Below are positions 1-5,586 of a stretch of DNA of 44,104 nt, one piece after another. The notes below the pieces were generated by a model. That model was not told the origin of the DNA. It searched no databases and saw only the letters and a list, made by a program, of their open reading frames with translations. The DNA comes from an uncultured archaeon. GTDB taxonomy: Archaea > Halobacteriota > Methanosarcinia > Methanosarcinales > Methanoperedenaceae. How positions within the stretch are numbered: position 1 is the stretch's first letter; the number at the start of each line of letters is the position of its first letter. Location: positions 1 to 44,104 of the forward strand of contig CABMCA010000073.1 of the NCBI GenBank assembly GCA_902384525.1. The letters run 5' to 3'. A program made the translations under genes and the position numbers.

Positions 1-293
1 CATTTGTAAATGATCAATCCTACGACCAGTACGACCTGCACGATCCCTATAGGTAAATGAAGACTGTTAGATATATATAAAGGAGCAATTAATGCTTCTT
101 CTACTATTGACCAGCGCCACCCTGTTTCCACACCTTCCAGCGTAACGAAATGTGAAATGGTCAGGGCAAGCACGCCGCAAATAAATAAAAATACTTCCAG
201 ATTTTGCTCAATGATCTTGATCTTGAACGGCCCGATCAGTACAATCAGGAAAATGATAAAAAGTCCTATTGTTATCCCAATATCCAGTGCCAT
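1..293 (-). CDS. DUF1646 family membrane protein, 5' part only
   Basis: An open minus-strand frame starts at an ATG (291-293) and runs without a stop to the window edge, giving about 97 residues. It begins MALDIGITIGLFIIFLIVL and continues with GPFKIKIIEQNLEVFLFICGV, then a TISH motif and further hydrophobic stretches, so at least three membrane segments are visible. The pattern of an N-terminal helix, a short charged loop with IEQNLE, and a second helix matches my memory of DUF1646 proteins, which are suggested to be ion transporters in methanogens. A GGAGGA Shine-Dalgarno lies just upstream of the ATG on the minus strand. The C-terminal part is outside the window. The family call is from memory; a transport substrate cannot be given. 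Confidence 0.7.
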   Translation of the reverse strand, partial: MALDIGITIGLFIIFLIVLIGPFKIKIIEQNLEVFLFICGVLALTISHFVTLEGVETGWRWSIVEEALIAPLYISNSLHLPIGIVQVVLVVGLIIYK

Positions 294-551
294 TTATATT
301 TTTCCTCCTATAACAAATTTTGAAATCCAAGCCAACGGCTGAATTTCTTCATGAATAATCATAAGGTCTTTTAAAGTTTGTGTTTTGATTTGATTATTAA
401 TCGTGAAAAATTCTTTCTGCAATTTCTGGAAAATCAAGAAATGAGGTTTATTAGAAACTAATTATTGAAATTCAATATCATTGAACTTTCTTTGTGTACA
501 GCTTCTTATAGATTTGTGGACAAAAGTATAAAATTTAATTCTATTTTTCCA

Positions 552-593
552 TTCAGGAAAAGATTATATCTTTTCAGGAAAAAATTATGTCTT
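552..593. repeat. two tandem 21-bp repeats, operator-like
   Basis: TTCAGGAAAAGATTATATCTT (552-572) is followed directly by a second copy at 573-593 that differs at two positions. A 21-bp period puts both copies on the same DNA face. Inside the array, AAAAGAT-TAT-ATCTTTT (558-574) is a perfect 7-bp inverted repeat. The position upstream of a DNA-binding regulator gene suggests binding sites, possibly for autoregulation; this is inference. Confidence 0.6.
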
Positions 594-614
594 TGATGCA
601 AAGACTTAAATATT
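589..614. promoter_or_regulatory. palindrome GTCTTTG-ATG-CAAAGAC next to a TATA-like box
   Basis: A perfect 7-bp inverted repeat with a 3-nt spacer occupies 589-605 and abuts TTAAATATT (606-614), which resembles an archaeal TATA box. A repressor bound here would cover the TATA element. This promoter would be about 150 nt upstream of the regulator gene. A second TATA-like stretch, TTATATTT at 740-747, lies about 25 nt before the regulator ATG. Confidence 0.4.
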
Positions 615-663
615 GACCCAATTTTTACCATTAATTATGACAGATTGTAATCTGGCATATAGC

Positions 664-754
664 GGTTGTATTTCTCAATTGCATCCGACTATTTATCTGG
701 AAAACAGGGGTGTAGCCACGCCCCTCTCTCCTATTTTGGTTATATTTCTCAATT
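664..754 (+). repeat. pair of 17-bp direct repeats (664-680 and 738-754)
   Basis: GGTTGTATTTCTCAATT at 664-680 recurs at 738-754 with one change (GGTTATATTTCTCAATT), 74 bp apart. The downstream copy contains the TATA-like TTATATTT and sits immediately before the ribosome binding site of the XRE regulator. The upstream copy could be an alternative promoter or a second regulator site. Confidence 0.5.
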
Positions 755-767
755 CCGGTGATAGATA

Positions 768-1301
768 ATGACAGCAGATGATCTAATAAAAGCAGTAATA
801 GAATCGGATGAGGCCTTTATCAAGGAGTTCGCAAGGACAATAAAAGATGAACTGCATATGACCGCCGGGGAATTCAGTGAAAAGTCCAGCATCCCGGCAA
901 GCACCATATACAAGATATTATCAGGCCACCGTGAACCGAACGTAAAGACCCTGAGACAAATTATATCGTTTTTGCAGAAACTGGAAGGCAAGGATCAACT
1001 CGAAAGGGAAAAGTCCGGGTTCATTGCTGTAATAGCAGCCCGGCCTGTACTTGATCTGATCACGGAGAAGAAACTCAAGGTAAAAGACCGCCTTCTTACC
1101 ATCAGGGAATATTCAGCAACCTCGATGGAAGAAGCTATCATAGCTGCGATAAAAGCAGAGAGGGACGGTGCAAAAGCAGTGGTATGCGCACCAATAGTCA
1201 GTACCACAATTGAAAAGGTGCTGCGAATACCTGTAGCCATCATCATGCCCAGGGACAGCCTTTTTGAGGCCATTGAGCTTGCTGCCAGAAAAATGGGATG
1301 A
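768..1301 (+). CDS. XRE-type transcriptional regulator with PrpR_N-like C-terminus
   Basis: This 177-residue protein has an N-terminal helix-turn-helix at about residues 20-72 (phrases FSEKSSIPASTIYKILSG and PNVKTLRQIISFL are typical of XRE/Cro-type HTH domains). The C-terminal 90 residues include EAIIAAIKAERDGAKAVVCA and IPVAIIMPRDSLFEAIELA, which resemble the end of the PrpR_N sensory domain, a periplasmic-binding-like fold in which a small ligand is sensed. GGTGAT at 757-762 is a suitable ribosome binding site. Direct repeats and palindromes upstream suggest autoregulation. HTH is clear; the ligand domain is inferred from a few motifs, and the ligand is unknown. Confidence 0.8.
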   Translation: MTADDLIKAVIESDEAFIKEFARTIKDELHMTAGEFSEKSSIPASTIYKILSGHREPNVKTLRQIISFLQKLEGKDQLEREKSGFIAVIAARPVLDLITEKKLKVKDRLLTIREYSATSMEEAIIAAIKAERDGAKAVVCAPIVSTTIEKVLRIPVAIIMPRDSLFEAIELAARKMG

Positions 1302-1309
1302 TCCGATTC

Positions 1310-2515
1310 TCAATGTACTAAATTGATTCCAGTGTTCAATGCTGTTTTAAATATCTCCAATGGATTGGAAATACCAAGATAATGAACTATCAAAGGTATC
1401 GCTACAATAGTCCCAAGCATACTCCCAAAGTTGGCAAGGCCAGCAACAAGTAAAATACGAAATAATCTATTCTGCATTAATTCTTTTAAGTTTTCAGTTT
1501 TCATTATGTTTTTGAAATCTTCGGTCATTGGTGGGCGATAATGCGTTTCCACAATCCCGGCGAGCCACCCGACTGGCAACCAGGGATGCAGGAATCCGGA
1601 CCATGCAAGGCTAAAAGCAGTTAAAATTGAAAGAGAATGTCCACGTGCGAGTATAACACCAGCAGCCGAGAGTGTTCCCTTGGTTATGAATAAAATTAAC
1701 AGCATGGTCAAGAGAGTCATTAAAGAAAGAGTCCCGGAATAGACAAGAAGAGCCGGTAATCCTATAACCATAACGGATAATCCGATAGCAGCAGCCTTAA
1801 ACCAGCTAACGCGCTTTTTTGGGAGCGCCAATAATTCCTCAATTGGAGGAATAGACTTCGGAGCATCGAGATACTTCTGGATGCCTTCACGATGGCCTGC
1901 TCCTACAACAGCTACAACCTTTCCTTCCCTGGAGAAATCAATCAGATTTTTTGCCATTATAGCGTTTCTTTCATCCAAAAGAACAGATACAGCAGTAGGG
2001 GCAATCTTCCTCAACTCAGATACCAATTGGGTGACTACATCCTCATCTGTCACTCTGTCCATATCAATATCTTCTGTACCGAAACCGAATGTTGCACCAA
2101 TGAGAGAAATAAATAACTTTAGCTTCTCAAAAATGGACATTTTATTCCAGAAACGTGCAATAGTGATCTGGATATCCCTATCGATAAGTGCCAAATGTGC
2201 GTTCATTTTCTCGGCCTTTTCAATTGCAGACAGCATCTCAGCACCTGGCTTAACCCCCTGCTCTTTACCGAATTTTTTCTGAACATAAGCGAGAAGCCAT
2301 TGCATCAAAAAGTGATAAAATCTGTTTCCGCTGAGTAAGTCTTTAACATTTACTTCTTTAACTTCTTCTTTCCCTTTTAATGCATTATACCTGGCTTTAC
2401 AGAGTTCTACAGCCACAATGTCGGGCTTTTCCCTTTCAATTACTTCATTGACCTCAGTTACGCTCTTTTCAGAAACATGAGCTGTTCCGACTAAGATAAT
2501 CTTACCAGTATTCAT
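1310..2515 (-). CDS. TraB family protein (TraB/PrgY-like), membrane-anchored
   Basis: This 401-residue protein opens with ILVGTAHVSEKSV and PDIVAVELCKARYNAL, the two conserved motifs of the TraB/PrgY/GumN superfamily, a Tiki-like metalloprotease-related fold. A later VVAVVGAGHREGI is the third family motif. Residues about 235-400 carry four or more hydrophobic helices, so the N-terminal domain is membrane-tethered. PrgY limits peptide pheromone activity in enterococci; the archaeal role is unknown. The start lies one base from the tatA-like stop, so the two genes are probably cotranscribed. Confidence in the family is high; activity is not established. Confidence 0.88.
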   Translation of the reverse strand: MNTGKIILVGTAHVSEKSVTEVNEVIEREKPDIVAVELCKARYNALKGKEEVKEVNVKDLLSGNRFYHFLMQWLLAYVQKKFGKEQGVKPGAEMLSAIEKAEKMNAHLALIDRDIQITIARFWNKMSIFEKLKLFISLIGATFGFGTEDIDMDRVTDEDVVTQLVSELRKIAPTAVSVLLDERNAIMAKNLIDFSREGKVVAVVGAGHREGIQKYLDAPKSIPPIEELLALPKKRVSWFKAAAIGLSVMVIGLPALLVYSGTLSLMTLLTMLLILFITKGTLSAAGVILARGHSLSILTAFSLAWSGFLHPWLPVGWLAGIVETHYRPPMTEDFKNIMKTENLKELMQNRLFRILLVAGLANFGSMLGTIVAIPLIVHYLGISNPLEIFKTALNTGINLVH

Positions 2516-2516
2516 A

Positions 2517-2810
2517 TTATGTTTTTAAAACTTCATTCGATCTTATTTTTGAACGAATCTCTTCAATAAGCTGCTCATTAGATTTATTCCGGGTATCCAG
2601 ACCCATTTCTGCTGCAAGGTTATGGATTTTTTCATCCTTATCGTCTAATGGTTTAACCATTTGCTTCAATTCGGTTTCAGTTTGCATCTGCGCTTTCTTG
2701 AATTCTCCTGTTGCCTTGCCTAATGACCTTGCCATTTCGGGAAGTTTATTTGACCCGAATAACAATAAAGCTACGGCCAGAATTAATATAATATCTTCTA
2801 TTCCAAACAT
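2517..2810 (-). CDS. tatA: Sec-independent translocase subunit TatA/TatE
   Basis: The protein starts MFGIEDIILILAVALLLFGS, followed by KLPEMARSLGKATGEFKKA: one membrane helix, the FG hinge and an amphipathic helix, the hallmark of TatA. TatA oligomerises to form the pore that exports folded proteins with twin-arginine signals. I chose the ATG at 2810 because GGAGGAAG precedes it on the minus strand; an in-frame upstream start would add 15 residues not typical of TatA. The tail (residues about 50-97) is charged and longer than in the smallest TatA proteins. The following gene is TraB-like, one base away. TatC is not in the window. Confidence 0.88.
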   Translation of the reverse strand: MFGIEDIILILAVALLLFGSNKLPEMARSLGKATGEFKKAQMQTETELKQMVKPLDDKDEKIHNLAAEMGLDTRNKSNEQLIEEIRSKIRSNEVLKT

Positions 2811-2947
2811 TTCTTCCTCCAGGTCAACCAAAAATACAGGATTGAGGGATAGCATAACAGATCATTGTTGGTGGTATATGGAAAAAAATTCTTTTTTGAA
2901 AGAATATAGGTCATGCTGTCATTCCCCCCTGATTTCTTATATTGCCG

Positions 2948-3088
2948 CTAAGCATGTATATTAGACCCGCCAACAAGCAGCAAGATGATTAATACCATTA
3001 TTATTTTTAACCATAAAGGACTGACATAATATGATAATTTTGTTCTCAGTTTCATTTTTACTAATTCTTCAGCTTTGTCTGCTGCCAT
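2948..3088 (-). CDS. 46-residue single-pass membrane protein, hypothetical
   Basis: This short minus-strand frame begins MAADKAEELVKMKLRTKLSY and continues with SPLWLKIIMVLIILLLVGG, a single predicted membrane helix, ending in SNIHA. The N-terminus is charged and the hydrophobic segment has a clean coding look. TTAAATTATATC lies upstream as a possible TATA box, and a weak CAGGG precedes the ATG. I do not recognise a family. It could be a noncoding coincidence, but length, charge pattern and promoter favour a real small membrane protein. Confidence 0.45.
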   Translation of the reverse strand: MAADKAEELVKMKLRTKLSYYVSPLWLKIIMVLIILLLVGGSNIHA

Positions 3089-4397: not shown

Positions 4398-5246
4398 CTA
4401 TCTTAGTGGTCTGGGTTGCTTATGCTCAGGCAGCACAGGCAATTCTGCTGTGCTGACTAGAATTGGTGATTCTATTTCCTTTGCCCTCTCAATGATCAAT
4501 TCTTTGCCCTTTTGTGTCAATGCGAACATGGGAACAGAAGTTCCGGCCTGGAGGACGGGACGTACAAGGTGGCGCACCATATTTGAAGCACAGCTTGTGA
4601 TAATATCCATTTTCGCAATAAGCTCCTGTGCTTCCCTGAATTGGATTCCTGTGAGATGAGCCCCGATAAGGATAAGGTCAATATTCTTTTCTTTTTCTAT
4701 CAAACGAAGTTTCAAAGCCTCTGCAGGAGAGACAACACTTACCGCAATCTTCTTATAACCCAGTTCACACGCTCTTACAAGACCTCCTGCCTGGTCTATT
4801 CTTGCATTTTCTTTATCAAGAACTATACCTCCCCGCGATTCGATCCCTGCAATAATTTGCGTTATCGGCTCGGTTTCAATAAGTCCTGACATCAAAGCAC
4901 CCATACCCTGTACCAGTACAGGATTACTAGTTATCACAGTTCCCGCACCATCGCATACAGTGACCGTGGAATCGATAATCCCGCGGGAAAGGGCGGTCAT
5001 CATTATCTCACTTGCCCCGAAATTGACAAAAACACCCTGATCCAACTTTCTTTCCGGGGTAAACATCCCCAGTTCGCGTATCCTGTATTCCATATTCTTT
5101 TTTGCTTCCAGGGAGGTGAGTCTTGAAACATTTGAAACCTTACTGAAAACAGGACACCAATCCGCAACAGGTTCACCAACCTCCACAACTTTCCCATCCT
5201 TTATTACAACCCTTGTTTTCCCGAACAATTCCATAATATGCGGCAT
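4398..5246 (-). CDS. Methanogenesis marker protein 8 (DUF2099)
   Basis: The protein has the typical opening GKTRVVIKDGKVVEVGEPV followed by DWCPVFSKVSNVSRLTSLEA, which I recognise from methanogenesis marker protein 8. The family is found nearly only in methanogens and their methane-oxidising relatives; its biochemical role is unknown to me, although restriction to these organisms points to methyl-coenzyme M reductase or cofactor maturation. A glycine-rich core (GAGTVITSNPVLVQGMGALM) and conserved cysteines are present. The ATG at 5246 follows AGGTGAT, which is part of the preceding gene's stop region, so translation is coupled with the 112-residue gene upstream. Confidence 0.87.
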   Translation of the reverse strand: MPHIMELFGKTRVVIKDGKVVEVGEPVADWCPVFSKVSNVSRLTSLEAKKNMEYRIRELGMFTPERKLDQGVFVNFGASEIMMTALSRGIIDSTVTVCDGAGTVITSNPVLVQGMGALMSGLIETEPITQIIAGIESRGGIVLDKENARIDQAGGLVRACELGYKKIAVSVVSPAEALKLRLIEKEKNIDLILIGAHLTGIQFREAQELIAKMDIITSCASNMVRHLVRPVLQAGTSVPMFALTQKGKELIIERAKEIESPILVSTAELPVLPEHKQPRPLR

Positions 5247-5247
5247 T

Positions 5248-5586
5248 TCAATCACCTGCGAACCTGTAAAGTTCAAGCAATTCTGTGGCTTTTATTCTTG
5301 AGATCTTTTCGCCTGCGACCTCAATAAGCGCATCGACATGCTCCTTTTTAACGCAATGAAGGCTCTCCATTCCCTCAAATATCAAATTTACAAGGTAATT
5401 CAATTCTTCATCAGAAAGCTTCAACAACCGTTCCCTGAAATCACTCTTTGAGGTAGAAATATGCTGGCTCACAGGAGGAAGCACTGACCTGAATTCCCAC
5501 CCCGCATGTCCGCATGTGTTGTCGACAAGTTCAGGAGCGATTTTTTTAAGAATTTGAAGATCCAGTGAATTCAGCTTTCGTGCCAT
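5248..5586 (-). CDS. Hypothetical protein coupled to methanogenesis marker 8
   Basis: This 112-residue soluble protein begins MARKLNSLDLQILKKIAPEL. It includes DNTCGHAGWEFRSVLPPVS and a helical C-terminus with DEELNYLVNLIFEGMESL. I recognise no domain. Its stop lies directly ahead of the marker-8 start, and the marker-8 ribosome binding site is within its last codons, so the two proteins are likely made together. The N-terminal CGHAGW motif with a cysteine and histidine could bind a metal. A partner or assembly role beside marker 8 is inference from position only. Confidence 0.75.
   Translation of the reverse strand: MARKLNSLDLQILKKIAPELVDNTCGHAGWEFRSVLPPVSQHISTSKSDFRERLLKLSDEELNYLVNLIFEGMESLHCVKKEHVDALIEVAGEKISRIKATELLELYRFAGD

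Follow-up and report, generated by a model that had tools for sequence, protein, structure and literature searches.

An apparently captured and doubled cysteate synthase promoter before a candidate coenzyme M-linked regulator in Candidatus Methanoperedens

Methyl groups are carried by coenzyme M (CoM) in archaea that produce methane and in those that oxidise it, and the locus described here raises the question of what an array of repeats does, and where it comes from, when it lies ahead of a helix-turn-helix regulator gene in such an organism. The window (the whole analysed stretch of 44,104 nucleotides, contig C73) derives from a genome of the methane-oxidising archaeon Candidatus Methanoperedens, and its closest named relatives are Candidatus Methanoperedens. 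The regulator gene at 768-1301 is designated A-type, and a second copy of the regulator, B-type, is found on contig C88 of the same genome. Window positions 1-127 are identical to the reverse-complemented first bases of contig C50 of this genome (L256), which carries the remainder of the DUF1646 gene followed by mtrE, so that mtrE is next door, past the DUF1646 gene. A preliminary description of the locus placed the repeats in a 474-bp gene-free region; positions 294-767 do lack a family-matched gene, but a 43-codon open reading frame at 637-768 lies inside. The features of the locus, with cs denoting the cysteate synthase gene, are the following.

517-530, + strand: Box 1, TGGACAAAAGTATA, of general form ACRANNGTA; pattern AC[AG]ANNGTA in 9/9 regulator leaders and 28/29 cs promoters
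547-561, + strand: distal copy of Box 2, TTCC-N5-GGAAAA, present in regulator leaders only (joint alignment)
567-582, + strand: proximal copy of Box 2, TATC-N6-GGAAAA, in the register of the single cs Box 2 (9 leaders aligned with 29 cs promoters)
605-612, + strand: TATA box, CTTAAATA, conserved in the alignments
637-768, + strand: short leader ORF of 43 codons, the first ~20 homologous to the start of cysteate synthase (DNA homology to ~704)
707-724, no strand assigned: dyad GGGGTG-TAGCCA-CGCCCC, in some form in 9/9 leaders and absent from cs
768-1301, + strand: A-type regulator with HTH_3 and a PrpR_N-like C-terminal domain carrying the invariant Cys140 (domain searches, alignment and fold comparison)

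The box at 517-530 and the dyad at 707-724 are conserved elements additional to those described previously. On the basis of the usual archaeal spacing to the TATA box, transcription is predicted to start at ~631-637.

The tandem 21-bp repeats at 552-572 and 573-593 are present as originally described and identical at 19/21 positions, an agreement matched in 1/1000 first-order resamplings of the 474-bp region and thus non-random. The 17-bp direct repeats at 664-680 and 738-754 are likewise real and above chance in the window (identical at 16/17, equalled in 2/1000 resamplings), but the second copy is recognisable in only 3/9 leaders (G000, 16/17; G021, 12/17, p 0.012; G008, 12/17, p 0.007). The palindrome GTCTTTG-ATG-CAAAGAC at 589-605 exists and touches the TATA-like box at 605-612 as claimed, but it is chance-like, since 556/1000 resamplings contain a 7-bp palindrome whose gap is 0-10, and it is not kept in the orthologue alignments. 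A search of the genome for more copies of the repeat, as originally suggested, led no further: TTCAGGAAAARATTATRTCT with up to 3 mismatches gave 6 matches in the genome, two of which are the array itself, versus 3 for the reversed control. The proposed conservation ahead of orthologues held up well, and the operator-like array is a real, conserved cis-regulatory array. Array and TATA box are kept before nine A-type copies (the window and eight others; G000, G002, G005, G007, G008, G016, G019, G021 and G023) in 9/31 genomes of the genus. The A-type loci can be aligned in their upstream DNA between roughly Box 1 and the start codon, with only L032/L003, among seven other loci compared, alignable further to the left, and the block stays with the regulator even where mtr is not adjacent (L116 and G007).

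The origin of this block is invisible from the window alone. A sequence-only model of the leader, built from eight regulator leaders and searched against 31 genomes of the genus, returned at E<=1e-3 the nine regulator leaders and 16 further places. Of these, 15 are starts of the gene for cysteate synthase, the enzyme that begins CoM synthesis (all identified by TIGR03844, above its cut-off), and the exception is a single place in G028. A joint alignment of the nine leaders with 29 cs promoters shows Box 1, Box 2, the GGAAAG-TATA element, the position of the ATG and ~20 codons to be common to both, and on these matches and alignable elements window positions 517 to ~704 are a paralogue of the cs promoter together with the first ~20 cs codons. 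The regulator leaders differ from cs in that they have two copies of Box 2, 21 bp apart, where the cs promoters have one (extra unit in 9/9 leaders and 0/29 cs promoters), and in that they depart from cs at ~704 to continue with the dyad and the regulator gene. The spacing TCC-N6-GG is found in 7/9 leaders and 27/29 cs promoters (in G029 at another position), the leaders without it being that of the window, with a gap of 5, and that of G002. Two observations indicate that cs was the donor, as its promoter also occurs in genomes without an A-type gene and the leader has enzyme codons without the enzyme. In the genome of the window the Box 2 of cs reads GTCC-N6-GGGC whereas the leader retains GGAAAA, so the two copies have long been kept apart. 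We therefore regard capture of the promoter, as read from these alignments, as almost certain, and the occurrence of one copy of Box 2 before cs, in the same register, further supports a cis-regulatory role for the array. The gene for sulfopyruvate decarboxylase follows cs in both loci tested (2/2). Beyond the genus, in a search of 119 genomes in all under stricter filters, no more than three places matched the leader model at E<=0.01 (G043, G050 and G118; best 0.0019). The viral contigs contained no relative of the regulator and no exact copy of the 3' part of the leader.

The regulator resembles the XRE/HTH_3 one-component regulators (the restriction controller C.Esp1396I, DdrO and others) in its N-terminal part. 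HTH_3 scores 31.7 bits in the window protein against a Pfam gathering score of 23 and is matched at E<=0.01 by 44/44 relatives, and the HTH fold is alike (Z 7.4, 62 aligned, 2.9 A). Unlike those regulators, it has a separate Rossmann-like C-terminal domain with a cysteine, Cys140, that is invariant in 44 sequences; the protein model (mean pLDDT 83.6, pTM 0.49) comprises the HTH domain and this Rossmann-like domain, and Foldseek gave no match to it at E<=0.001. The earlier suggestion that the C-terminal part senses a small molecule is plausible in light of the fold comparison and of a PrpR_N match, which in the window protein reaches 16.2 bits, under the Pfam gathering score of 29.1, and is obtained at E<=0.01 by 17/44 relatives (best 0.00055). 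Residues ~80-177 are similar in fold to the N-terminal sensor of PrpR (2pju; Z 7.2, 93 aligned, 4.3 A, a score in the range where common arrangements also score) and to a racemase-type fold (2eq5; Z 9.0, 74 aligned, 2.5 A), although the domain is shorter than PrpR_N. Eight of the A-type proteins cluster together within Methanoperedens (100/99), the ninth, from G023, having been left out because an in-frame deletion of its HTH takes it under the length filter. This single group points to one duplication within the genus, and by its sequence the A-type regulator is a genus-specific paralogue. The assumed recognition-helix part of the HTH hardly differs between A- and B-type proteins, which suggests one site for both. 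Altered copies of the gene also occur: the HTH-deleted A-type regulator of G023 (L114, G023:C268, 4407-4832) has kept its leader; in G003 (L110, 5030-5323) only the C-terminal part is left, divergent from mtrE; and in G025 (L115, G025:C63, ~2056-2430) the HTH part runs into unrelated sequence, possibly through misassembly.

The A-type gene is near the mtr operon in 7/9 genomes, where it is divergent from mtrE (L117, L118 and L108), upstream of mtrE in the same direction (L109 and L114) or separated from it by other genes (L119 and the genome of the window); it lies away from mtr in L116 and, in the stretches examined, in G007. The non-A loci have ssuA or ssuC, of a sulfonate-type ABC transporter, in the flank in 56/70 cases, and a regulator orthologue stands beside ssu in 12/14 Methanosarcina-titled loci. 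The transporter proteins obtain scores with the SsuA family, and of four tested, two exceed its cut-off. The 14 non-A loci without ssu include loci with short flanks, six full-flank Methanoperedens loci and four from Methanophagales or related genomes.

These genes coincide with a published response. PMC12068725, which states that CoM is the methyl carrier in methanogens, reports that nearly 60 genes change in a CoM-starved mutant of Methanosarcina acetivorans and that the changes are relieved by CoM; among these genes are cs, comDE, hdrABC and, for an ABC transporter specific to CoM, ssuA and ssuC, with ssu, cs and comDE induced by the starvation. Deletion of hdrABC likewise raises the sulfonate transporters, cs and comDE (PMC12713407). 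The passages of these two papers available to us do not name the regulator of the response, and we recognised no named CoM regulator among the papers that literature searches listed, including the available passages of PMC12068725, PMC12713407, PMC11619418, PMC1852104 and PMC5244752. MsrC, discussed as a candidate heterodisulfide sensor for methyltransferase genes (PMC11619418), could instead account for some of the CoM sensing in that organism. The gene set ssu, cs and comDE of the M. acetivorans response (PMC12068725) is the same as that encountered here, with regulator orthologues beside Methanosarcina ssu, but no Box 1 or Box 2 is recognised before Methanosarcina cs. The CoM-specific transporter is only likely to be the regulator-linked ssu, because the locus tags of ssu are absent from the PMC12068725 text at hand. 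As the leader repeats represent the cs promoter and first codons in an enlarged copy, the regulator family becomes a candidate for the CoM sensor. From linkage and published expression, we consider the chances evenly balanced that the regulator responds to CoM or a sulfonate. Conceivably, at a probability we would put well short of even, the family is the CoM sensor of the Methanosarcinales and controls both ssu uptake and cs-comDE synthesis, a part of Methanoperedens holding a second copy under the captured, doubled cs promoter, mostly near mtr, by which methyl transfer would be tied to the supply of CoM. The thiol or the heterodisulfide may be sensed directly by the invariant Cys140.

The distribution of the boxes bears on what they are. 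The arrangement TCC-N6-GGA-N18-GGAAAG has 36 matches in the 31 genomes versus 19 for the reversed control; 13 are cs promoters, 4 lie before mtrE (that on contig C50 of the window's own genome included), and the other 19 equal the control count. The enrichment at cs is clear. For mtr the strict Box 2 is found in 3/25 promoters read (a 26th locus gave no start), and since the mtr sites come from related genomes and are so few, control of mtr is a hint. We consider it likely that the boxes are protein-binding regulatory sites; that this particular regulator binds them is a tentative proposal, which we hold to be less probable than its contrary. Their position directly upstream of the TATA box fits an activator or recruitment, and repression is equally possible.

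A conserved site also precedes the regulator in other loci. The site conserved upstream of orthologues is recognised in 36/45 outgroup loci (those reaching 13/17 against a consensus read from such sequences, so that the count is partly circular), in 23/26 Methanoperedens B-type loci and in 0/29 cs promoters. A matrix trained on this site before the outgroup regulators recognised Box 1 in 0/29 cs promoters at p<=0.05, which speaks against a single operator for the whole order. Among the leaders 3/9 reached p<=0.05, one at Box 1 (G002) and two elsewhere; in five of the nine the highest-ranking position falls on Box 2 in the reverse orientation (p 0.045-0.08), an observation on which nothing is built here. 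The outgroup site and Box 1 have the common core CAANNGTATT. With up to 2 mismatches the site gave 9 matches in the window's genome versus 7 for the control, and a scan of 8 Methanosarcinaceae genomes showed four g19 genomes to have one exact match apiece, ahead of the regulator, with otherwise no excess over the control (18 vs 29). At L065 and other Methanosarcina loci a conserved site, CCCAAATGTATTAATA, lies between ssuA and the regulator, ~100-130 bp before the latter, and in L065 it is part of a longer palindrome; the exact matches in the g19 genomes scanned are to this site. Bacterial sigma-70 sites, inappropriate in an archaeon, were discarded, as they were not above shuffles (2 found, 3.9 expected).

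The explanation that we favour, and hold to be moderately probable, is that the regulator is a one-component protein linked to CoM whose gene stands under a promoter of CoM synthesis that was captured and doubled. The sequences show that the regulator gene was duplicated in Methanoperedens and that the A-type copy came to lie behind a copy of the cs promoter and ~20 codons, with Box 1, Box 2 and the BRE/TATA element. Box 2 was doubled there, and since a 21-bp step corresponds to about two turns of DNA, both copies lie on the same face; the second would provide stronger or cooperative control. The cs fragment became a short ORF ending near the regulator start. Translation probably begins at this stub ORF, with coupling to the regulator possible. 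A factor, perhaps this regulator family itself, would bind the boxes beside the TATA box and tune transcription, with the C-terminal domain sensing CoM or else a sulfonate or thiol related to it. Co-expression with cs and, presumably, the downstream comDE would let the level of the regulator follow the demand for CoM. The likely targets would be cs-comDE and the regulator's own gene, with the adjoining mtr operon as a possible further one, and the B-type copy or an orthologue may handle the ssu transporter. Several observations count against this explanation: the leader persists in L114 despite the lost HTH, the B-type gene of the window's genome is not adjacent to ssu, strict Box 2 occurs in 3/25 mtr promoters, ssu is absent from 14/70 non-A loci, and Methanosarcinaceae cs promoters have no clear Box 1 by eye or pattern. 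Its simplest binding model is further opposed by the absence of the outgroup-trained site from cs and by G001 and G012, which have no regulator match and yet keep both boxes before cs.

These last two genomes indicate that another factor may bind, unless the gene is missing from the assemblies, and lead to a reading in which the promoter was captured but some other, general factor binds its boxes, the regulator being expressed like cs and acting elsewhere. The failure of the outgroup matrix at cs (0/29) is in agreement with it, as are the boxes before cs in genomes without an A-type copy. The excess of boxes, however, is seen only at cs and at a small number of mtr promoters, with the remaining 19 matches equalling the control, which argues that they are not a general promoter element, and Box 2 is doubled specifically before a regulator; we judge this reading rather unlikely. 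The classical alternative, an autoregulatory operator with looping between separated repeats as initially envisaged, can draw on the conserved tandem repeats upstream of the TATA box and on the above-chance 17-bp repeats of the window. Looping is nevertheless unsupported, because the 17-bp repeats lie in and after the cs-derived coding stub, 3' of where transcription is predicted to start, and their second copy is mostly unconserved (3/9 leaders), and the palindrome is chance-like; we regard such an operator as very improbable.

It is also improbable, if slightly less so, that the leader acts as RNA, either as a structured element or riboswitch or as a leader peptide whose translation controls the regulator. 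The window leader folds better than shuffles (z -2.66), and the dyad at 707-724, whose pattern GGGGYG-N6-CGCCCC occurs once in the genome and 0 times for the control, is conserved and could be either an RNA hairpin or an operator. The stub ORF is open in 9/9 leaders, and its end falls in the interval from 22 bases ahead of the regulator start to 14 bases past it, the TAA stop overlapping the regulator ATG in the window (TAATG); its first 57 nt carry an in-frame coding signal (p 0.018, 8 sequences), as expected from the cs origin. Against an RNA role, the covariation term of the consensus fold is positive, i.e. unfavourable, hairpin pair counts are not above shuffles (338/500 shuffles reach the percentage paired), and single-base deletions shift the stub frame in the window and L114. 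Nor was an Rfam family found, with 0 matches to Rfam 15 in window positions 1-3000 and, in 540-800, only matches under the gathering score (E 0.36-8.4). A structured RNA was set aside, since the single and consensus folds, Rfam and the pair counts add little beyond the folding z-score of the window.

Under the CoM-linked explanation, the locus documents how a regulator may be drawn into a pathway, through capture of the promoter and first codons of an enzyme gene and doubling of one box. A candidate family and likely sites can now be named for the CoM-starvation response, for which M. acetivorans is suited to direct testing, and the candidate CoM regulator should merit such a test by specialists in methanogen regulation.

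Two minor observations concern the surroundings of the A-type gene and mtr. A methanogenesis marker 8 protein is encoded at window positions 4398-5276 (TIGR03275 for the window copy) and recurs close to the A-type gene in L119, L118, L108, L110 and L154. One Methanoperedens genome has a second, divergent mtrE match above the cut-off (319 bits) at G015:C2:64803-65657 (L294).
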